A stretch of 38,164 nt of DNA from positions 1-38,164 of the forward strand of contig JAUVHU010000016.1 in the NCBI GenBank assembly GCA_030593145.1, given 5' to 3'. Positions 672 to 15,842 of the stretch are shown here, one piece after another; the first letter of the stretch is position 1, and every line of letters starts with the position of its first letter. The notes below the pieces were generated by a model. That model was given only the letters and a program-made list of their open reading frames with translations, searched no databases and had not been told where the DNA came from. The position numbers and the translations under genes are program-made. Source of the stretch: Desulfobacteraceae bacterium. Its GTDB lineage: Bacteria > Desulfobacterota > Desulfobacteria > Desulfobacterales > ETH-SRB1.

Positions 672-1505
672 CTATTTATTATAAAGATCATTTATGATTT
701 TATTACTTTCATTAAGACCGTGCCGGCAAAAATCTCCCAGAAAACCGCGTATATTTTCCAGGTAAGCAATTTTATCTTCTTCCTGTCCGGATAAAAGAGA
801 TTCCTTCCCTTCCTCCATCGCAGACATAAAGGTTTCCAGCGCCTCTTTAACATGCCTGTTTTTGCCTATCAGGTTTGCGTAAAGCTCAATATCCTGTGAA
901 AAAAGACGTCCTATTAGATCGGCCTTTATCCTGAAAACCGGAGTTGAATAAAACATGGCCTGGTCAGGCGCCATATTCATCTTCTGAAGCGTCCTTCCCA
1001 TGCATATAGTCAAAAGGTGTGTAAGTCCCTGTACAACAGCCATATTCCTGTCATGCGTGGCTGGCTCCATACGCGTAACAACAGCTTCTTCTGCCCGAAG
1101 TATTTCCTCGAACCAGTTAAGCCAAACTGTTCCCCTGCCTGGACATACTACTACATTTTGCCCTTTTATCGAACCGGTAAAAGGCCCAAACAGGGGATGT
1201 GTACCAATCACCTCGGCAGATGTACAACTCAGCATGCTTTCCATAATATCTTCTTTAAGTGAGCATAAATCCATCAAGAGCTGATCCTGACTCAGAAGCG
1301 GACCTATCTCCCTGGAAAGAGGTATGGCCGCGTCAAGGGGAACACTCAAAATAACAACATCGCATTTTTCCGCAACATCTCTAAAGGAGATTTTTGTTTT
1401 GCGGCCGGAAATTAAAACATTGTGCCCTGCCCCTGTAAAGAATCTCTCAAACCAGCGCCCCATACTGCCTGTTCCGCCTATTATGCCTATTGTAGTACTG
1501 CTCAT
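672..1505 (-). CDS. tyrA: Prephenate dehydrogenase
   Basis: Converts prephenate to 4-hydroxyphenylpyruvate with NAD(P)+, the step committed to tyrosine. The N-terminus IGIIGGTGSMGRWF (residues 6-19) is a Rossmann dinucleotide site, and GTHPLFGPF near residue 100 is the conserved prephenate dehydrogenase substrate-site motif with its catalytic-region histidine. The 277-residue length fits a single-domain TyrA without a fused chorismate mutase or ACT domain; the chorismate mutase of this operon is on PheA. The start codon overlaps the aroC stop in an ATGA arrangement, which indicates translational coupling. It is the last gene of the aromatic operon. Confidence 0.93.
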   Translation of the reverse strand: MSSTTIGIIGGTGSMGRWFERFFTGAGHNVLISGRKTKISFRDVAEKCDVVILSVPLDAAIPLSREIGPLLSQDQLLMDLCSLKEDIMESMLSCTSAEVIGTHPLFGPFTGSIKGQNVVVCPGRGTVWLNWFEEILRAEEAVVTRMEPATHDRNMAVVQGLTHLLTICMGRTLQKMNMAPDQAMFYSTPVFRIKADLIGRLFSQDIELYANLIGKNRHVKEALETFMSAMEEGKESLLSGQEEDKIAYLENIRGFLGDFCRHGLNESNKIINDLYNK

Positions 1506-2554
1506 TGAATCGCCCTTTGCCTTAAAAGATGATCGGCAAGCACAAGACTTACCATTGCCTCACACACAACATTGATACGCGGTATTGCAGAAACATCATG
1601 ACGCCCTTTTATTGAAATAGCTGCCGGATTTCCAAAGCAGTCAACTGTCTTCTGCTCAATAGCGATGGAAGGAATCGGCTTTACCGCCACCTTTATCAGA
1701 ATATCATCTCCGTTAGATATGCCCGCAAGTATGCCGCCGGCATTGTTTGTAGAAAATCCCTGTGGAGTTATCTGATCATTATTTTCAAATCCGGTCATTG
1801 CAGCAGCTTTAAAACCTGCCCCGATCTCTACCCCCTTTACTGCCCCAATACTCATCAAAGCCTTTGCCAGGTCTGCATCAAGCTTGTCAAACACAGGCTC
1901 ACCCAATCCCGGGGAAACCCCTTTTGCCAGGATTTCAACAATACCCCCTATTGAATCTCCCTTTTTTTTTACATCTATTACACGCTTCTTCATCTTTTCC
2001 GCAGCATCCATATCAGGACAATAAAACATGTTTCTGTCCATAACTCCCAAGTCACGCTTCTCTGCTCTGACACCGCCAATCTCTGCAGTATATGCGAAAA
2101 CCTTTATCTTTTCTCTGTCAAGAAGCGCTTTTGCAACAGCGCCTGCCGCCACCCTTGCCGCTGTTTCCCTCGCGGATGCACGGCCACCGCCCCGCCAGTC
2201 CCGTATTCCATATTTGGCCTGGTATGTTATATCGCCGTGGCCTGGCCGAAACAGCTCAGCATAAGGCTCGTAAGCCCTTGAATCGGCATCCTTATTATAT
2301 ATCATAATCATAACAGGTGTGCCTGTTGTCATTCCATCAAAAACGCCTGACATAATAACCGGTTCATCCGGTTCTCTGCGACCGGTACTTGCCAGGGACC
2401 TTCCCGGACGTCTGCGATCCAGCATTGATCTGATAACATCTTCATCAAGAGGTATCTTTGGCGGACATCCGTCAACGACAACGCCAACGCCTTTTCCGTG
2501 GGATTCACCCCATGTGGTAATTCTAAATAATGTTCCAAAGCTGCTACCTGGCAT
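1502..2554 (-). CDS. aroC: Chorismate synthase
   Basis: Catalyses the last shikimate step, EPSP to chorismate, using reduced FMN. Family signatures are visible in order: GTLFRITTWGESHG at the N-terminus, the arginine-rich RRRPGRS (about residues 48-54), RPGHGDITYQAKYG (about 103-116) and GGGRASARETAARVAAGA (about 122-139), which form the FMN/EPSP pocket. Length of 350 residues is normal. The gene overlaps tyrA by four bases at its 3' end. Upstream, the 144-base gap to aroK holds an inverted word-array repeat. Confidence 0.97.
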   Translation of the reverse strand: MPGSSFGTLFRITTWGESHGKGVGVVVDGCPPKIPLDEDVIRSMLDRRRPGRSLASTGRREPDEPVIMSGVFDGMTTGTPVMIMIYNKDADSRAYEPYAELFRPGHGDITYQAKYGIRDWRGGGRASARETAARVAAGAVAKALLDREKIKVFAYTAEIGGVRAEKRDLGVMDRNMFYCPDMDAAEKMKKRVIDVKKKGDSIGGIVEILAKGVSPGLGEPVFDKLDADLAKALMSIGAVKGVEIGAGFKAAAMTGFENNDQITPQGFSTNNAGGILAGISNGDDILIKVAVKPIPSIAIEQKTVDCFGNPAAISIKGRHDVSAIPRINVVCEAMVSLVLADHLLRQRAIQ

Positions 2555-2698: not shown

Positions 2699-3229
2699 TT
2701 ATCTTTTTACTTTAGGCTCTTTCAGTTCCCCCATGATCTTACCGCATATATCGTCTATACTGCGATCGTCCGTATCTACAAAAAAATTCATTGCTTTCTC
2801 ATAGAGTGGCTTCCGGTCCAGAAGAATTTCTTCAATCTCTTCAACTAATCCTTTTGAAGATAATGAGGGGCGAAAATCTCCGGTTGTTTTATCCTGCAAA
2901 ATTCTTTTTTTAACTGTTTCCGGCTCTGCCCTCAACCAGACAACCACCCCGCTTTTTTTCATACTTTCAACGTTTTCACTATCAAGAATTACCCCGCCTC
3001 CTGTGGCAACCACATGCTTATCAAGGCCGCAGATTTTTTTTAGAATTCCTTTTTCCTTTTCACGAAAAGAATCCCATCCCTCTTTTGATACAATATCATT
3101 AATGCTCATGGAATATGTTTCCACCAGCTCTTTATCAGCATCGATAAAAGACCATCCAAGAGTCTGAGCAAGAGACTTTCCCACAGAAGTTTTGCCGGTA
3201 CATCTATATCCTGTCAAAAATATGTTCAT
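2699..3229 (-). CDS. aroK: Shikimate kinase
   Basis: Phosphorylates shikimate at O3 using ATP. The Walker A loop GYRCTGKTS (from residue 7) and the shikimate-binding DADKELVE (about residues 30-37) are present, as are FREKEKGILKK and the GGGVIL glycine loop (about 77-82), then RPSLS near the lid. 176 residues is normal for a monofunctional kinase. The ribosome site is a GAGG that lies inside a hairpin arm immediately upstream (3237-3261), so translation of this gene may depend on RNA structure. It lies between aroA and aroC, separated from each by repeat-bearing spacers. Confidence 0.95.
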   Translation of the reverse strand: MNIFLTGYRCTGKTSVGKSLAQTLGWSFIDADKELVETYSMSINDIVSKEGWDSFREKEKGILKKICGLDKHVVATGGGVILDSENVESMKKSGVVVWLRAEPETVKKRILQDKTTGDFRPSLSSKGLVEEIEEILLDRKPLYEKAMNFFVDTDDRSIDDICGKIMGELKEPKVKR

Positions 3230-3384: not shown

Positions 3385-3408
3385 CTAATTGAGCTTTGGC
3401 TCAATTAG
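3385..3408. repeat. Perfect hairpin overlapping the aroA stop codon
   Basis: CTAATTGAGC (3385-3394) pairs exactly with GCTCAATTAG (3399-3408) around a TTTG loop. The stem includes the last codons and stop of aroA. No U-run follows on the minus strand, so an ordinary terminator is unlikely. Its core AATTGAG matches the hairpin at 3237-3261. Confidence 0.6.
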
Positions 3409-4669
3409 AGTTATACAATTTTTCAAAAACATTCCAGAAATCAGGAAATGACTTTTCCACACACTTTTCGTCCTTGATGAAAATACCGGAGACCACAAGA
3501 CCAGCAAGAGCAAAACTCATGGCTATGCGATGGTCGTCATAAGTGCTTATTTCAGCCCCACAAGGATTTCCGCCATTAATAATCATGCCGGAATCGGTGC
3601 AGCTTGCTTCTATCCCCATCTTTAAAAGTTCATTTACAACAGAACCCAGACGATCACTCTCCTTTGCCTTTAAATGAGCTACGTTCTTTATAAGAGTTCT
3701 GCCTTTGGCAAAGGCTGCAACAACGGCCAGAGTCGGAACTATATCCGGCATGTCAGCCATATCGACCTCAACGGCAGAGAGAGGCCCACCTGAAACAACA
3801 ATTCCATCATCTTCATGAAATACCCTGCAGCCCATCGATTCAAGCACCTCTGCAAAACGGACATCACCCTGCCTCGTTGCCCCTGTAATCCCCTTAACCT
3901 TGATCCTTGAACCTGTTATTGCAGCAGCAGCCCAGAAATATCCTGCCTGTGAACAGTCCGGCTCCACCATATACGAACCCGCTCTATACGCCTGCCGGCC
4001 ATGAACCGTAAATCTCCTGTATCCATCACGTATGACCTTAACCCCAAGCCTCGTCATTATATCAACGGTCATATCTACATACGGTCTGGAGACAAGCCCC
4101 TCTGTAACGGTTATTTCAAGGCCATCTTCTGTATAGGGCGACATTAAGAGAAGCGAGGAGAGATACTGGCTGCTTATCTTGCATTTCAGAGATAAAGCGC
4201 CACCCTTTACTCTTCCCCCTCTCATCTCGACCGGAGGGCATCCATTCTTGTTAACGCTGCGAGCAAAAACTCCGATCTGGTTCAAACCGTCTAAAAGATC
4301 CTGAATAGGCCTTTCAAACATGCGCTCTGTACCTGTAAGCGTACACATGCCGTCTCCAAGCGCCGCTACTCCGGTTAAAAGACGCATGGATGTTCCGGAA
4401 TTTCCAAGATAGACAGGATCGCTGCACGACTTTAATATGCCGTTTATCCCGTGTACTACTATCCTGTCATCGCAATCATCTATCCTGACACCAAATTGCC
4501 TGAGAGCGCTCATAGTAAATAGAGTGTCTTCACTTTTCAGACAATTCTCTATGGTGCAGACTCCATCAGACAGGGCTGCGGCAATCAATATTCTGTGGGT
4601 ATAGCTCTTTGATCCAGGAACCGCGATCTCAACACTCTTTTTTATCTTTTGCGATTTTATCTCGATCAT
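3401..4669 (-). CDS. aroA: 3-phosphoshikimate 1-carboxyvinyltransferase (EPSP synthase)
   Basis: Transfers the enolpyruvyl group of PEP to shikimate 3-phosphate. The shikimate-phosphate motif PGSKSYTHR (about residues 18-26), the PEP-site GNSGTSMRLLTG (about 90-101), the DMPDIVPTLAV segment and C-terminal DDHRIAMSFALAG with a Lys-Ser-Phe-Pro-Asp-Phe-Trp end are all in place. The 422 residues are typical of class II enzymes. The start overlaps the aroE stop by four bases (ATGA), implying coupled translation. Its stop lies in a perfect hairpin. Confidence 0.97.
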   Translation of the reverse strand: MIEIKSQKIKKSVEIAVPGSKSYTHRILIAAALSDGVCTIENCLKSEDTLFTMSALRQFGVRIDDCDDRIVVHGINGILKSCSDPVYLGNSGTSMRLLTGVAALGDGMCTLTGTERMFERPIQDLLDGLNQIGVFARSVNKNGCPPVEMRGGRVKGGALSLKCKISSQYLSSLLLMSPYTEDGLEITVTEGLVSRPYVDMTVDIMTRLGVKVIRDGYRRFTVHGRQAYRAGSYMVEPDCSQAGYFWAAAAITGSRIKVKGITGATRQGDVRFAEVLESMGCRVFHEDDGIVVSGGPLSAVEVDMADMPDIVPTLAVVAAFAKGRTLIKNVAHLKAKESDRLGSVVNELLKMGIEASCTDSGMIINGGNPCGAEISTYDDHRIAMSFALAGLVVSGIFIKDEKCVEKSFPDFWNVFEKLYNSN

Positions 4670-5484
4670 TTTCCGAGTGCATCCAGCACAGTCCTTCTCA
4701 TTATATCAACAGGCGCTTTCTCTCCGGTCCACATTTCAAACTGGGCAGCTCCCTGATAGACAAACATCGAAGCTCCGTCTACGGTAATGCAGCCGATGTC
4801 TTCGGCCTCCTTTAAAAGACGTGTCTTTATCGGATTGTAAACAATATCCATGACAACCATGTCTTTGTTTAAATCTTCTCTTTGTACCGGCATTGCTTTT
4901 GTATTTGGTGTCATTCCAACAGGAGTCGCATTTATCAATATCTGGCAATCAATATTCTTAAACTCTGAAGCATGGTAATAATTAACCCCAAGGTCCCTTG
5001 CCAGATTCTCTCCTTCATCCTTTAAAACACCTAAAATGGTTAATCTTCCCCCCTCTGATACTATGCCAAAGCCTATTGCGCGTGCAGCTCCGCCGGAGCC
5101 AAGAATAACCACATCCTTATCTTTGATACCTGTCTTCTCCAATAATGCATGCGTGGCGCCAAGACAATCCGTATTATAACCAAAAAGTTTTCCGTCTCTA
5201 TTAACAATAGTATTGACAGCACCGATCTTTAAAGCCTTTTCATCTATACTATCAAGAAACTTCATCACTTCTACCTTATGAGGTATGGTGACGCTGGCAC
5301 CCTTTATGCCCAGAGCCCTTATTCCGCTTATTGCGGAAGCCAGATCCCTATCCTTTACATTGAATGCAAGATATGCTCCGTTGTAGCCTGTGTGAGTAAA
5401 AGCGCTATTATGCATAACAGGACTCAAACTGTGGGATATCGGATCTCCAAGCACTGCATATAAAGATGTATTTGAATCAATCAT
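4666..5484 (-). CDS. aroE: Shikimate dehydrogenase (NADP+)
   Basis: Reduces 3-dehydroshikimate to shikimate. The substrate site SLSPVMHNSAF (about residues 18-28), the catalytic VTIPHKVEVMKFLD (Lys of PHK, about residue 70), GAVNTIV and NTDCLGA, and the nucleotide site VILGSGGAARAIG (about residues 125-137) are visible. At 272 residues it is a single AroE domain, with no fused dehydroquinate dehydratase. Since no AroD or AroQ is in the operon, that step must be encoded elsewhere. The gene is coupled to aroA downstream. Confidence 0.96.
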   Translation of the reverse strand: MIDSNTSLYAVLGDPISHSLSPVMHNSAFTHTGYNGAYLAFNVKDRDLASAISGIRALGIKGASVTIPHKVEVMKFLDSIDEKALKIGAVNTIVNRDGKLFGYNTDCLGATHALLEKTGIKDKDVVILGSGGAARAIGFGIVSEGGRLTILGVLKDEGENLARDLGVNYYHASEFKNIDCQILINATPVGMTPNTKAMPVQREDLNKDMVVMDIVYNPIKTRLLKEAEDIGCITVDGASMFVYQGAAQFEMWTGEKAPVDIMRRTVLDALGK

Positions 5485-5657: not shown

Positions 5658-6758
5658 CTATGCCCTTGGATACGACCCAAGACATTTTAGATACATGCAA
5701 AGACTCTTCATCTTGGTCAAGGTTTCCTCTACCTTGGAATCTTCAATATGGCCTTCAATATCAACAAAGAAGAAGTAGTTCCAGTTTTCATATTTAGTGG
5801 GCCGCGACTCAAGCTTTACCATATTTATTCCTGCTTTGGCGATCGGCTCTAAAACATTGTGCAAAGCACCCGGCACATGAGCTGTAACAAACATTATCGA
5901 AGTTTTGTCCTTTCCGGTACTGTGCATCTCATCTCGTCCGATTACCAGGAACCTTGTTACATTTCTCGAAAAGTCTTCGATCCCTGAAGTAACAACCTTC
6001 AGATTATACATACGAGCTGCTTCTCTGCCGGCAATTGCCGCTAACGTCGGTTTTTCCGCTGCTTTTTGTGCGGCACGAGATGTGCTGCTGCATTCCTCAA
6101 GCACAGATTTGGGAAGATGTTTTTCAAGCCACCTGCGGCACTGGGCAAAAGCATGAGGGTGCGAATAGATTGTTTCAATATCTTCCAGAACACCTGTCTT
6201 TGATAAAAGATCATGGGATATAGTATGATATATCTCTGCACAAATTTTCAAGTCCGATTCAAAGAAAAGATCTAAAGTATAATTTACAGTCCCTTCAATC
6301 GAATTCTCCACCGGAACCACGCCATAATTACATACCTCCTTTTCGACTTCACGGAATACGTCACGAATGCTCGGTTGTGGAACAAATGAAACAGAATGTC
6401 CAAAATGGTTCATGGCGGCAATATGGGTGAATGTAGCATTGGGACCAAGGTATGTAACAATTTCTTTTTTCTGAATATTGCGGGATAAGGCAATTATCTC
6501 GGTGTATATATTACGAAGCGCTTCTTTGCCTACAGGGCCTTTATTAAGATTTAAAAGCCTTCGAATGACTATAGCCTCACGAGCACTGTCAAACACCTGC
6601 TCACTACGTTCTTCCTTGATTTTCCCGATCTCCTTTGCAATGAGAAGTCTTTTATTAATTAAGTCAAGAATCTTCTCGTCGATCCCATCTATCGATTTTC
6701 TTAAGGGGATGATACGAGAATCTGAAGTGTCTGTTTTATTTTTATCGCTATCTGCCAT
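5658..6758 (-). CDS. pheA: Bifunctional chorismate mutase / prephenate dehydratase (P-protein)
   Basis: Makes prephenate from chorismate and then phenylpyruvate, the phenylalanine branch. Residues about 15-100 are an AroQ-type helical mutase (RKSIDGIDEKILDLINKRL, then KIKEERSEQV). Residues about 100-285 are the dehydratase, starting YLGPNATFTHIAA and containing NSIEGTVNYTLD and the C-terminal TRFLVIGRD. Residues about 295-366 are an ACT domain with KLESRPTKYENWNYFFF, the usual phenylalanine feedback site. Length of 366 is standard for the fusion. It follows the dehydroquinate synthase II gene by only 25 bases. Confidence 0.96.
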   Translation of the reverse strand: MADSDKNKTDTSDSRIIPLRKSIDGIDEKILDLINKRLLIAKEIGKIKEERSEQVFDSAREAIVIRRLLNLNKGPVGKEALRNIYTEIIALSRNIQKKEIVTYLGPNATFTHIAAMNHFGHSVSFVPQPSIRDVFREVEKEVCNYGVVPVENSIEGTVNYTLDLFFESDLKICAEIYHTISHDLLSKTGVLEDIETIYSHPHAFAQCRRWLEKHLPKSVLEECSSTSRAAQKAAEKPTLAAIAGREAARMYNLKVVTSGIEDFSRNVTRFLVIGRDEMHSTGKDKTSIMFVTAHVPGALHNVLEPIAKAGINMVKLESRPTKYENWNYFFFVDIEGHIEDSKVEETLTKMKSLCMYLKCLGSYPRA

Positions 6759-6783: not shown

Positions 6784-7776
6784 TTATTTTTCGGTTATTG
6801 TTTCATCTATCTTGTGACCAAAGTGTCTGCCGCATTCCTCAAGAGCTATCAGCACCTTGTCTCCAGCGACAAGATTTACAACCGATACAGGCTTGCCTTC
6901 AGGATCGGTAAGACGGATGGTTTCCGCATTCTGAAGGATAGTCGTCACCTCCCGTCCGCCGGCCAGCGCCCTTATAAGCATTAATGGACGTTTTTCGATC
7001 TTTAGCCGACCAACAATGCCGGTCGTTGTATTCCCCTTAAAATCGACAAGCAATACCTGGTCACCTGCTGAAAGCTCAGAAAGATATCTGGTCTTTCCGC
7101 CGGGAACTCTTGTGTATGCATGAACAGGTCCGGCATTGACCCTGAATGGCCTTTGAGCCACATAAGGATTCGAAACGCTTTCCGCATGAACAAGGAACAA
7201 GGCGCTGCTGCTGTTCCCAACCAGCATCCCCTGACCAGGAGGCATTGATGTACAAGTATCCACACAAACTCTGTCTCCCATACCAATTGAACAAATATCT
7301 ACAATGCTGGCTTCTTCAAGAACTGTTTTATCCTCCACTGAAGCAATTAATGACAGTGTTTTTTTCAGGTCCATAACATCTGTAGTATGAATCAGGATAT
7401 GATCAACTCCCTTTTCCAAAATGCTGAAAGCGGTCTGCGCATCATTAAAGCTATGAACCTGAGCAATAACATCTGCGCCCTTTGCTATAAGATTTTCAAG
7501 AGGAATTATTGTCCAATCGCTGCACTGAAGAACCACCTTCTTGTTTTTACAAAGCTTTACAATCTCATCTTCGTCTTCACCGCTTTTTATTATAAAAAAA
7601 AGAACATCTTTGCCAGGCTTTAAATCTCCATCTTCGGAAATTGTTTGTATTCTGCCCAGTTCCTTGACCTTTTTAGAATATCCTTTTGGAACCATTATAG
7701 CTTCCGCTCCTCCTTCAAGAGCGGTTGTTACTAATTTTTTGTCCCATGGATCTACCTTTACCCAGATTTTTTTCAT
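6784..7776 (-). CDS. 3-dehydroquinate synthase II (archaeal-type AroB')
   Basis: Oxidatively deaminates and cyclises 2-amino-3,7-dideoxy-D-threo-hept-6-ulosonate to 3-dehydroquinate with NAD+, in place of classical AroB. The protein starts MKKIWVKVDPWDKK and carries the family stretches GMGDRVCVDTCTSMPPGQGMLVG, given here as VCVDTCTSMPPGQGMLVG, then SNPYVAQRPFRVNAGPVHAY and EECGRHFGH near the C-terminus. I chose the ATG at 7776 because the longer frame (to 7803) begins inside the spacer repeat, while GGGGAT lies before the shorter start. The next upstream gene supplies its substrate, so the two form the alternative entry to the shikimate pathway. Confidence 0.93.
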   Translation of the reverse strand: MKKIWVKVDPWDKKLVTTALEGGAEAIMVPKGYSKKVKELGRIQTISEDGDLKPGKDVLFFIIKSGEDEDEIVKLCKNKKVVLQCSDWTIIPLENLIAKGADVIAQVHSFNDAQTAFSILEKGVDHILIHTTDVMDLKKTLSLIASVEDKTVLEEASIVDICSIGMGDRVCVDTCTSMPPGQGMLVGNSSSALFLVHAESVSNPYVAQRPFRVNAGPVHAYTRVPGGKTRYLSELSAGDQVLLVDFKGNTTTGIVGRLKIEKRPLMLIRALAGGREVTTILQNAETIRLTDPEGKPVSVVNLVAGDKVLIALEECGRHFGHKIDETITEK

Positions 7777-7796
7777 AGCATATATCCCCATTGTTT

Positions 7797-7913
7797 GGTT
7801 CATGGTTCACGGTTCAAAGGTTCAGGGTTCACTGAAATCTAAACCATCCCACCCGCCTCACGAGCTTAGCGAACGGGCAGGGTTGTAACCTTGAACCTTT
7901 GAACCGTTGAACC
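7797..7913. repeat. Inverted GGTTCA-word array
   Basis: The left array is built of GGTTCAC/GGTTCAA words (7797-7832), the right of the reverse words TGAACC/TTGAACC (7884-7913). ACGGTTCAAAGGTTCA (7809-7824) pairs perfectly with TGAACCTTTGAACCGT (7892-7907). The loop contains a GC-rich segment with CCCG/CGGG pairing. It lies between the first two genes of the aromatic operon. No gene is seen. Confidence 0.75.
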
Positions 7914-7929
7914 TATATCATACAGCCGA

Positions 7930-8727
7930 TTATTGCAAAAACTTAATTGCATCGTCCACGTTCATGCCATCATTTACAATACCGGAAATAGCTCTAACCA
8001 TATTCGCAGGATCTTTGTGCTGGAATACGTTACGGCCTATGGAAACTCCGGCGCCTCCGGCATCAATAGCTCCCTTTACCATTTCCAGAATATCCATATC
8101 TGAATCCATTTTCTCGCCGCCGGCAATCACAACCGGAATAGAACAACCAGCTACAACCTCTCTAAATGTCTCTGTTGATCCGGTATATGAAACCTTTACA
8201 ATATCCGCTCCCATCTCATCCCCAAGACGGGCCGCATGTTTGATTACATTTACATCATACTCATCTTTGATTTTCTCACCCCTTGGATAGATCATAGCGA
8301 GAAGAGGCATTCCCCATGTTCGCGCATTATAGCTTACCCTGCCAAAATCATTCAACATCTCTTTTTCACCACCATTGCCAAGATTTACATGAATGGATAC
8401 CGCGTCAGCGCCCAATTTAATCGCTTCTTCAACCGAACAGACCAGAGTTTTGGCGTTTGGATAAGGCGAGAGACTCGTTGATCCGGAAAGGTGCAGGATC
8501 AAACCTATGTCTATTCCCCCTCCGCGATGGCCTTCTCCAACAAGCCCTTTGTGTTCAACAATGGCATTTGCGCCTCCACTTGCCACCTTTTCTATTATTC
8601 CCTTCATGTCCAGCAACCCATCAATAGGGCCCACCGAAACACCGTGATCCATTGGAACAATTACGGTATTACCTGATTTCCTGTTAATGATACGTTCCAT
8701 CCGAATTCTTTTTCCTAAAATAGTCAT
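7930..8727 (-). CDS. 2-amino-3,7-dideoxy-D-threo-hept-6-ulosonate (ADTH) synthase, class I aldolase family
   Basis: Member of the DhnA/FbaB class I aldolase family; in this context it condenses L-aspartate semialdehyde with a 6-deoxy-5-ketofructose phosphate unit, the first step of the archaeal-type route to dehydroquinate. Seen: [12 protein letters not shown] (active-site Asp near residue 27), [16 protein letters not shown] (general acid Tyr region), the Schiff-base lysine in DIVKVSYTG (about residue 180) and VVIAGGEK plus [13 protein letters not shown] for phosphate binding. The partner 3-dehydroquinate synthase II is next in the operon, which favours ADTH synthase over fructose-bisphosphate aldolase. 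AAAGGAGG precedes the ATG. First structural gene behind the attenuator. Confidence 0.9.
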
Positions 8728-8791
8728 GTTTCACATCCTCCTTTTGCGCAAAAAGACCATGATGAGTTATCCACCCACAGCCTTTTAAAAA

Positions 8792-8830
8792 CAAAAAAAG
8801 CCGTGGGCTTTATTCTACCCACGGCTTTTT
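8792..8830 (-). terminator. Intrinsic terminator / attenuator before the aromatic operon
   Basis: On the minus strand AAAAAGCCGTGGG (8830-8818) pairs perfectly with CCCACGGCTTTTT (8807-8795) around a 10-base loop, and the stem is followed by a run of seven U. It lies 25 bases after the stop of the aromatic leader peptide and about 65 bases before the ADTH synthase start. Similar GCC(U)GUGG words occur in the end of the leader ORF (8863-8870) and just past the terminator (8771-8782), each able to pair with the terminator's 3' arm. It could also serve manA, whose stop is 200 bases upstream. Confidence 0.85.
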
Positions 8831-8854
8831 GCATTTAATGATTTTTTAGTTTAT

Positions 8855-8932
8855 TTAACGCACCACAGGCAGACCGGTATTATAAAAATACCAATAATAA
8901 CTATAAAATTTGCCTGAAAAATTCTGCGTCAT
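8855..8932 (-). CDS. Aromatic-rich leader peptide (25 aa) of the shikimate operon
   Basis: A short ORF starting MTQNFSGK and ending NTGLPVVR. Residues 9-17 read FYSYYWYFY; in total nine of 25 residues are Phe, Tyr or Trp (F5, F9, Y10, Y12, Y13, W14, Y15, F16, Y17). AAGG lies seven bases before the ATG, and a promoter-like pair (8984-9012) precedes it. The stop is followed by the terminator hairpin and then the eight-gene aromatic operon. This is the architecture of pheL/trpL-type ribosome-mediated attenuation: shortage of charged aromatic tRNAs would stall the ribosome on the cluster and let transcription pass. The ORF and hairpin are seen directly; the mechanism is inferred. CAGGCA (codons 6-8) and TGCCTG (codons 21-23) can pair as an upstream hairpin. 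Confidence 0.85.
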   Translation of the reverse strand: MTQNFSGKFYSYYWYFYNTGLPVVR

Positions 8933-8983
8933 TTAATTACCTTAAAAACATCTTTTAAAAATTATTTAATTAATAATTGTGAT

Positions 8984-9012
8984 TAAATATATTTTCAAAC
9001 TTTAAATGTCAA
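8984..9012 (-). promoter_or_regulatory. Candidate promoter of the aromatic operon
   Basis: TTGACA (9007-9012, minus strand) is followed after 17 bases by TATTTA (8984-8989). It lies just after the manA stop and about 50 bases before the leader peptide start. Sequence-based prediction. Confidence 0.6.
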
Positions 9013-9032: not shown

Positions 9033-10238
9033 TTATATAGGAACCGAAGCCTTATAAAATGTTCCTTCACCTTTAATGCCGTATCTTTCGACAGAAGCAG
9101 GGATAACAACCGATACCCCTTTAACAAGGACAACAGAAACATTTTTACCAATATCCTTTATTGTCGCCTCGCCATCAGTACAAAGAATTATCTCAATGCT
9201 CCTTTTTTCAGAACTTGTATAGTTTATACTTTTGTCATCAGTAATTACAGACAGCTCAAATTCATCTGCAGGGGTTAAATATACATACTCACAATTACTT
9301 CTTTTCTGTGCTGAAAGTATATCTATCTCCCTTTCTTCAAAGTTGAGAACCTTTAAAAGCTCAGGAACATCCACATGCTTTGGTGTAAGTCCACCCCTTA
9401 ACACATTGTCCGAGTTTGCCATCAATTCTATCCCCACTCCATCAAGATAGGCATGAAGCTCACCTGCCTGAAGAAACATAGCCTGACCCGGTTCAAGGCA
9501 AATCAGGTTTAATATTACAGGAGAAAAAATTCCAATATCTTCCTGATACTCATTGTGCAGATTAAGCATCCACTCAAAAACTTGATTATGTTCCGAAAGC
9601 TTTTGCGCATTTTTTACCGCGTCGTTTATAAGAAGTTTTTGTCGGTCGGAATCCATTGCCATTAGATCATTAAAAAATCTTTTTAAGCCCACATGATCGG
9701 GCTGATTTCGAAGATCATCAAGCTCCTTGTTAAAACTTTGCGGACAAATTTTCTCCAAGAGTGAAAGAATGTCTGATATTTTGCGAAAACCGTTCAATGC
9801 CCAGAAAGGGGTCAAGGCACAAATACACTCCGGCTTGTGATTATCATCCTTATAATTCCTGTTAAAGGCATTCATTGGAATCCCAAGACTGTTTTCCCTT
9901 TCAAAACCGGCAGAAGCCTGTTTCAAACTGGGATGGGCCTGGATGGAAAGCGGTTTTGCCGCTGCAAGTACCTTTAAAAGATAAGGAAGCCTGTTGCCAT
10001 ATCTGTTTGCTGTCTTTTCCCCAAGAATATCTATTGGATTGTTTTTAATTAACTCGATTAAAGATATCCATTCCCCTTCACAATTAACCATTGATGGAGA
10101 CTTTGGATGCGCACCCATCCAAAGTTCAGCATGTGGTCTGTTTGAAGGTGAATCTTTTCCCAAAAGTTCAGGTATAGCCGTATAAGATCCCCAAGCATAT
10201 TCCTGCACAGTATTTTTAAGCAGACCTATTGTTTTCAT
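9033..10238 (-). CDS. manA: Mannose-6-phosphate isomerase, class I
   Basis: Interconverts mannose 6-phosphate and fructose 6-phosphate, feeding GDP-mannose and cell-surface sugar synthesis. The zinc-ligand motifs are present: SIQAHPS (Gln and His, about residues 96-102), DNHKPE (Glu, about 131-136) and GELHAYLDG (His, about 256-264). N-terminal NTVQEYAWGS and ELWMGAHP are typical of the family. 401 residues is near the normal length. It is transcribed in the same direction as the aromatic operon, but a promoter-like sequence, leader ORF and terminator lie between, so it is probably a separate unit. Confidence 0.95.
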   Translation of the reverse strand: MKTIGLLKNTVQEYAWGSYTAIPELLGKDSPSNRPHAELWMGAHPKSPSMVNCEGEWISLIELIKNNPIDILGEKTANRYGNRLPYLLKVLAAAKPLSIQAHPSLKQASAGFERENSLGIPMNAFNRNYKDDNHKPECICALTPFWALNGFRKISDILSLLEKICPQSFNKELDDLRNQPDHVGLKRFFNDLMAMDSDRQKLLINDAVKNAQKLSEHNQVFEWMLNLHNEYQEDIGIFSPVILNLICLEPGQAMFLQAGELHAYLDGVGIELMANSDNVLRGGLTPKHVDVPELLKVLNFEEREIDILSAQKRSNCEYVYLTPADEFELSVITDDKSINYTSSEKRSIEIILCTDGEATIKDIGKNVSVVLVKGVSVVIPASVERYGIKGEGTFYKASVPI

Positions 10239-15236: not shown

Positions 15237-15842
15237 TTACCTTGGGTGGACGAGTTCAGCGACGAATTTGCAAATAGAATCACCCATTGAACGACACGTC
15301 ACTTCTTTTGAAACAAAGGTCCCCATGCCGTCCGGATATTTGGGAGCATAAACAAGGTCCATATATGATGCGGTGCAGGCATTGAACATATAGCACCGTC
15401 CTCGAGGCTGGGGGCCGTATTCTTCCAGATAACGACCAGGGTCGTAGGCATTTCTTACTGTAGTGACAAGTTTTTTCCCAGGAATCAGTTCTTCTACCTC
15501 AATATACCCGATGCCAAAAACATTCGTAAAAGCAACCAGGGCGTGAACCTCATCCTCCGGAGTTTTAATCATTGGAAGAATGAAATCCCGCCAATGCATA
15601 GATGTTCGTGCTCCATGGAAGGTATGATAACCGCATGCCAATACTGCATCGTAGAGCTTTTGCTCCACTGACACAGCTTCTTTATCACCCACCATATTGA
15701 TGATTTTTGAAACCAATTTAAAATAGAATTCATTATAGTTCATAGCCACATATACGCCAAATGCGGCCATAATGCCTTTTTCATTACTTGCGAGAGGGAG
15801 GCTCGAACCCAACTCGATTATTTTTTTGCTGTCAATCGTCAT
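15237..15842 (-). CDS. V4R-domain (4-vinyl reductase-like) small-molecule sensor protein, second of pair
   Basis: 201 residues from ATG 15842 (MTIDSKKII); a longer GTG start at 15869 is possible but the ATG has GAAGAAAG before it and overlaps the preceding gene by 11 bases. The C-terminal half follows the V4R pattern: GYIEVEELIPG, TTVRNAYD, and the closing EVTCRSMGDSICKFVAEL with the characteristic C-x3-G-D-x2-C spacing. V4R domains bind hydrophobic or aromatic effectors in DmpR/XylR-type regulators and occur in BchJ. No DNA-binding part is present, so signal is presumably passed to the kinase encoded next. The ligand is unknown. Confidence 0.7.
   Translation of the reverse strand: MTIDSKKIIELGSSLPLASNEKGIMAAFGVYVAMNYNEFYFKLVSKIINMVGDKEAVSVEQKLYDAVLACGYHTFHGARTSMHWRDFILPMIKTPEDEVHALVAFTNVFGIGYIEVEELIPGKKLVTTVRNAYDPGRYLEEYGPQPRGRCYMFNACTASYMDLVYAPKYPDGMGTFVSKEVTCRSMGDSICKFVAELVHPR

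Follow-up and report, generated by a model that had tools for sequence, protein, structure and literature searches.

Organisation of the locus

The window analysed here, a stretch of 38,164 nucleotides, carries on its minus strand an operon of eight aromatic biosynthesis genes, the same eight by NCBIfam scoring as an earlier note had named from the sequence alone. The first gene encodes ADTH synthase (2-amino-3,7-dideoxy-D-threo-hept-6-ulosonate synthase; 7930..8727; TIGR01949, 367 bits against a cut-off of 299), with the Shine-Dalgarno sequence AGGAGG at 8737..8742, and the second encodes 3-dehydroquinate synthase II (DHQ synthase II; 6784..7803; NF002627, 492 bits against a cut-off of 392). 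These are followed by genes for a PheA-type chorismate mutase-prephenate dehydratase (5658..6758), the shikimate dehydrogenase AroE (4666..5484), the EPSP synthase AroA (3401..4669), the shikimate kinase AroK/AroL (2699..3229), the chorismate synthase AroC (1502..2554) and a prephenate dehydrogenase of the TyrA type (672..1505), all assigned with NCBIfam models. The shikimate kinase lies just under its cut-off (158.3 of 161 bits) and the TyrA-type protein (best E 3.4e-57) under that of every model, yet both matches are unambiguous in rank. Dehydroquinate dehydratase is absent from the operon; a type II gene is found unlinked, on another contig (G000:C59:11469-11879).

Upstream of ADTH synthase, whose coding sequence starts at 8727, lies manA, which is on the same strand and ends at 9033. 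The order of elements on the minus strand is manA, a –35-like TTGACA, the ribosome site AAGGT, a leader ORF, two hairpins (referred to as T1 and T2), AGGAGG and the ADTH synthase ATG. The leader ORF (8855..8932, minus strand) has 25 codons and encodes MTQNFSGKFYSYYWYFYNTGLPVVR followed by a stop codon, with AAGGT located 5' of its ATG at 8939..8943. Its codons 9–17 (8882..8908) specify FYSYYWYFY, and both the ribosome site and the aromatic run reported in the earlier note are present at this position. With an ATG start, 15–45 codons and F, Y or W at no fewer than 8 of 9 consecutive positions as criteria, simulation of 100 windows of 38 kb with the composition of the window produced no such ORF, and 100 windows simulated with AT-rich intergenic composition (about 3.8 Mb in total) produced 16; a chance origin of the leader ORF is unlikely.

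The TTGACA element (9007..9012, minus strand) is not reported by a plain sigma-70 scan of the window, because its spacing to the possible –10 element (TATATT, 8991-8986, minus strand) is only 15, and was recovered by comparison with relatives. Among 83 related regions, 76 have an exact TTGACA 5' of the leader, where shuffled sequences give an expectation of 3.2. The –10 element is weak in the window. Of the proposal that transcription starts upstream of 8932, the conserved promoter-like element is thus supported by comparison, and the start site itself is inferred.

Conservation of the leader among relatives

The comparison set of ADTH-synthase orthologues came from 58 relatives and from 80 named loci. 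It consists almost entirely of Desulfobacterales MAGs, with Desulfonema magnum and Desulfobotulus alkaliphilus in addition; after removal of duplicates, 87 loci had enough upstream DNA to be used. The aromatic leader, T1 and T2 are found together in 84 of these 87 regions. In the densest 10-codon window, the 84 leaders contain on average 8.2 aromatic residues in frame, compared with 2.2 and 2.7 in the other two frames. The comparison of relatives proposed earlier therefore bears out the pairing of aromatic ORF and terminator, and a lack of conserved aromatic codons, which would have refuted it, is not observed.

The three exceptions are L046, where no leader was found, L018, which has a stop inside the ORF, and L042, which has a divergent aromatic ORF further upstream. 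In L018, the early stop falls within the aromatic run and the RNA element is intact, and it may reflect a homopolymer error in a low-coverage MAG. A separate peculiarity is seen in L028, where about 140 nt of extra sequence with palindromic repeat-like pieces is inserted between T2 and the ADTH synthase ATG.

Phe and Tyr occur in the aromatic window of every leader, and Trp in 56 of 84. Since the leader studied here has a single Trp codon and the aromatic window of the remaining 28 has none, sensing of Trp may be slight.

Hairpins and mutually exclusive pairings

The leader transcript can be divided into six pairing regions. Region 1 (8911..8929, minus strand, as are all the regions below) lies within the first part of the ORF and consists of ACGCA (8929-8925) and CAGGCA (8916-8911); in the minimum free energy (MFE) structure it pairs with region 2 when not covered by a ribosome. 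Region 2 (8857..8875), made up of GGUCUGCCUGUGG, which contains the GLP codons, and UGCGUU, forms the 5' side of the antiterminator. Region 3 (8814..8835), made up of AAUGCA and GCCGUGGGUAGA, belongs to two structures, providing the 3' side of the antiterminator as well as the T1 5' arm, as supported for both regions by coevolution, pair counts and folding. The GLP codons that close the leader (GGUCUGCC) have their complement, GGCAGACC, in the loop and 5' arm of T1, the version in the window being UCUGCCUGUGG with GCCGUGGGUAGA, and UGCGCU at the leader stop is complementary to AGCGCA ahead of T1, a helix retained in just 69% of cells.

T1 (3:4; 8793..8830) is a predicted intrinsic terminator with a 14-bp stem (8830-8795) and a U tract, located 24 nt after the stop codon, in agreement with the perfect terminator that had been placed about 25 bases past the ORF. 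Its 3' arm constitutes region 4 (8807-8793). The earlier note had missed the conserved TTGACA (9012-9007), the antiterminator pairing and a second terminator-like hairpin, T2 (5:6; 8750..8786, hairpin 8786-8751), which has a short U tract and sits directly 5' of the ADTH synthase ribosome site. Region 5 (8774..8786; AAAAGGCUGUGGG) forms the 5' arm of T2 and is complementary to region 4, with a 4:5 energy of -21.1 kcal/mol. T1 and T2 share a GCCGTGG core, present as a direct repeat in the window. U runs follow T1 in 81 of 84 relatives and T2 in 79 of 84. Both hairpins are supported by covariation and termination at either is inferred; T2 of the window is partly degenerate and weak (-11.3 kcal/mol) and could be leaky.

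The locus thus has the sequence features that define an attenuator, namely a leader ORF between a promoter-like element and the operon, a run of codons for the end products, an intrinsic terminator before the first gene and an antiterminator that is mutually exclusive with it.

Coevolution of the pairing regions

Coevolution was assessed in 84 sequences by comparing the duplex energy of each genome's own segments with that of segments swapped among genomes. The 2:3 (z -7 to -12), 3:4 (-12), 4:5 (-7.3) and 5:6 (-13) pairings all coevolve, in contrast to the control pairings 3:6 (-0.1), 2:5 (0.2) and 2:4 (-0.1). Regions 1 and 2 also coevolve (z -4.8), whereas an upstream control does not. The contrast between pairings and controls survives thinning to 39, 19 and 12 representatives (below 70, 60 and 55% identity, respectively), with p 0.0002 for 2:3 among the 12. 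A second alternative pairing that excludes the last hairpin, as required of a his-type attenuator, is provided by 4:5, which is weaker after thinning (p 0.0026 with 19 and 0.026 with 12 representatives).

Pair counts lead to the same structures. Across 60 sequences, the ON structure (2:3 and 4:5) has standard pairs in 89.5% of cells, a share that falls to about 50% or less on sliding the strands, with 47 cells changed on both sides compared with 19.6 in shuffles, and the OFF structure (3:4 and 5:6) is paired in 96.4% of cells; for the control helix 3:6, pair counts in the ADTH-synthase set reveal no excess covariation. Compensatory changes are also visible by eye, such as CUUCC with GGAAG in L101, GACCUGCC with GGCGGGUC in L099 and GGUCUGUC with GACAGACC in L029.

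These data bear on the possibility that T1 alone attenuates, with T2 serving as a leaky or back-up hairpin that was copied from T1 and the 4:5 complementarity arising as a by-product of the copying. The common GCCGTGG core, repeated directly in the window, and the weakness of the window's T2 would fit such an origin. A mere copy is disfavoured because shared ancestry should make 3:6 coevolve as 4:5 does, which is not the case in the ADTH-synthase set, and the retention of T2 with its U run in most relatives also argues against it, as transcription in the ON state could not pass a strong unregulated terminator placed ahead of the first gene. Attenuation by T1 alone is therefore unlikely, though less so than the other alternatives.

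Proposed switching mechanism

When the RNA that a stalled ribosome would leave free is folded as far as the end of region 3, the MFE structure is the 2:3 antiterminator in 78 of 78 genomes; with the ribosome placed at the stop codon instead, T1 is obtained in all 78. In the fold model of the window, stalling at codons 9–16 leaves 2:3 fully available and stalling at codon 17 mostly so, and its availability is progressively reduced from codon 18 onward; the placement of the aromatic run at codons 9–17 matches the stall positions that free region 2. Summed over segments that were folded separately, the ON and OFF energies hardly differ (-36.6 and -35.1 kcal/mol in the window, with a mean difference of 1.4 over 77 genomes), so thermodynamics alone does not pick between them, and the choice is inferred, without kinetic simulation, to depend on which segments are free as they emerge.

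In the proposed mechanism, RNA polymerase would initiate 5' of 8932 and the leader would be translated by a ribosome. When charged Phe, Tyr and Trp tRNAs are present, the ribosome would reach the stop codon and cover region 2, leaving region 3 to pair with region 4 and form T1, and any polymerase escaping T1 would encounter T2 (5:6), where transcription would stop. A ribosome stalled on codons 9–17 would instead cover region 1, and region 2 would be free as region 3 emerges. The 2:3 pairing would then form ahead of the synthesis of region 4, which would in turn be free to pair with region 5, and with 2:3 and 4:5 in place neither T1 nor T2 could form and the operon would be transcribed.

The locus is very probably a transcription attenuator that is mediated by the ribosome and has two terminators in succession, a reading made in the absence of RNA or expression data. 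The ORF, the two hairpins, their mutually exclusive pairings, the coevolution and the promoter-like element rest on sequence and its comparison, and ribosome stalling and the opening of the operon by a shortage of any one of several aromatics are inferences from them. The control that the earlier note had inferred from ORF and hairpin is in this way supported by the comparison of relatives, and regulation itself is without experimental data.

A probable phylum-wide class of leaders

A covariance model trained only on the ADTH-synthase leaders detects the element in 56 of 58 relatives and in 162 of the 395 genomes that were sampled from the phylum, frequently with more than one copy per genome. 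Among 102 further matches that were read, 98 precede genes of amino-acid metabolism (labelled by similarity to representatives and mostly checked with Pfam; the pheA, aroE and trpEG labels are by sequence inspection). These are trpE or trpEG in 36 cases, DAHP synthases Ia and Ib in 24, ADTH synthase in 13, ilvB in 5, aminotransferases in 5, trpD in 4, periplasmic binding proteins in 4, PaaK-like ligases in 3, and pheA, aroE, a leuA/citramalate-type gene and a trpB-like gene in one each. The genome of the window itself contains a second copy before trpE (L146; G000:C33:34171-34290, minus strand) with a WWW leader, MKYITANKEFEYWWWQTCRCGFVSGILSA. The element also precedes ordinary DAHP synthases, some of them in genomes where no close relative of ADTH synthase was found. 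The shikimate entry through ADTH synthase, which had been singled out as the target of control, would be the target here, but the element is not special to that archaeal-style entry.

The leader usually fits the gene that it precedes, with WWW or WWWW before trpE, VVVV before ilvB and mixed F/Y/W before the entry enzymes. This speaks against the proposal that the repeated GCCGTGGG(C/T)AGA is a site for an RNA-binding protein or a ligand that sets the switch, with leader translation being secondary, as a common ligand would not predict that the leader amino acid tracks the downstream product. The proposal draws on how unusually well the sequence of the T1 loop and 5' arm is conserved; pairing with region 2 accounts for the loop letters, which change together with that region (CTTCC with GGAAG in L101, GACCTGCC with GGCGGGTC in L099), and there is little left to recommend such a site.

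A function of the leader peptide in trans, reflected in its conserved C-terminus GLPxVR, is similarly improbable. Such an action is reported for Sinorhizobium peTrpL (PMC7298713), and the C-terminal residues are conserved; the conserved residues are, however, those whose codons contain the bases that pair with regions 1 and 3, and the other leader classes have different C-termini. That the hairpins are merely terminators of manA, which ends upstream on the same strand, and the ORF an AT-rich coincidence can be practically dismissed, given that leader and hairpins are conserved jointly with the downstream gene throughout the order and are found ahead of other genes as well, that TTGACA is conserved 5' of the ORF and that the antiterminator covaries.

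When own and swapped segments were compared in the mixed-gene set, the twin hairpins were found to be kept, with z of -18 for 2:3, -22 for 3:4, -10 (-9.9) for 4:5 and -24 for 5:6. The 3:6 control, at -4.9, is less clean than in the ADTH-synthase set, and against the -9.9 of 4:5 it leaves attenuation by T1 alone weakened but not excluded.

Several members are of interest in their own right. In L148, L197 and L208, the gene after the element encodes a PaaK-like AMP-binding ligase and the leader, with the same hairpins, is rich in Phe, which suggests regulated salvage of aryl acids into Phe. Phe/Tyr-rich leaders are located before a class I/II aminotransferase, a candidate aromatic aminotransferase, in L230, L233, L235, L242 and L243, and before periplasmic binding proteins, candidate aromatic amino-acid transporters, in L218, L225, L236 and L241. 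In L183, L215, L217, L219 and L221, Val/Leu-rich leaders on the same chassis precede ilvB. L154 (G043:C17) has divergent back-to-back elements at 15658 (minus strand) and 16011 (plus strand), one with an F/Y leader before a DAHP synthase and one with a WWW leader before trpD.

The interpretation favoured on balance, with less assurance than the reading of the single locus, is that the leaders form a class of amino-acid attenuators that spans the phylum and is not represented in Rfam. In this class, one stalled ribosome would disarm two consecutive terminators (by 2:3 and then 4:5), and one chassis would serve, with the control codons exchanged, for trp, ilv/leu, aro, transport and salvage genes; in the shikimate version, the mixed Phe/Tyr/Trp leader would act as an OR gate.

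Relation to known attenuators

At gathering thresholds, no Rfam family, T-box riboswitches included, is found in the window or in 20 related loci, and a permissive search returns only chance-level matches, none of them to a T-box. The Rfam His_leader (RF00514; 16.4 bits against a gathering threshold of 49) and Phe_leader (RF01859; 23.2 against 55) models do not count the element as a member. As a specificity control, the E. coli trp leader region, and that region alone, was searched and does not match the element.

The E. coli his attenuator consists of six segments that pair as 1:2, 3:4 and 5:6 or as 2:3 and 4:5, depending on ribosome stalling, and only its last hairpin is known to act as a terminator. 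The element described here resembles it (RF00514) in the six-segment domino switching, a mechanistic likeness only, and differs from it in that 3:4 and 5:6 are both terminator-like with U tracts. In the E. coli pheA/pheST and trp leaders, a single terminator is combined with control by what is essentially one amino acid. With these (RF01859, RF00513) the element shares the end-product codons and the 1:2, 2:3, 3:4 logic, but it has two terminator-like hairpins and several aromatic control residues.

Attenuation at the shikimate entry step is itself not new. Corynebacterium glutamicum aroR-aroF has an aromatic Phe-Tyr-Phe leader and stalling attenuation at this step, according to the accessible parts of two sources (PMC4046766, PMC11802643); it differs in having a DAHP synthase and a short control run, and twin terminators are not mentioned in those parts. 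The C. glutamicum leader is reported to respond to Phe and not to Tyr (PMC11802643, citing Neshat 2014), and by analogy the dominance of Tyr in the present leader would not reveal which amino acid is sensed. The Acholeplasma uORFC-13-1 motif is a predicted uORF attenuator before the DAHP synthase gene aroF, which differs in having at least 1 Phe codon noted, one terminator and a distribution restricted to Acholeplasma and environmental sequences (PMC8632094). In the open-access literature, no description was found of an attenuator of ADTH synthase, of the leaders of this phylum or of twin-terminator leader-peptide attenuators, which does not rule out an earlier description. As judged from sequence, the working principle would be that of classical attenuation, and what the comparison adds to the earlier note is a second terminator, a covarying antiterminator and a family of such devices.

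Biological implications

The ADTH-synthase shikimate route has been described chiefly in archaea and in some sulfate reducers, and the element described here provides a predicted control mechanism for it. The same attenuator is found ahead of different entry enzymes, ADTH synthase as well as DAHP synthases Ia and Ib. The twin-terminator layout suggests a way in which an attenuator could reach a lower basal level of expression without loss of inducibility. In the poorly annotated genomes of this phylum, the element is a strong functional marker for genes that are likely to be related to aromatic amino acids or Trp.
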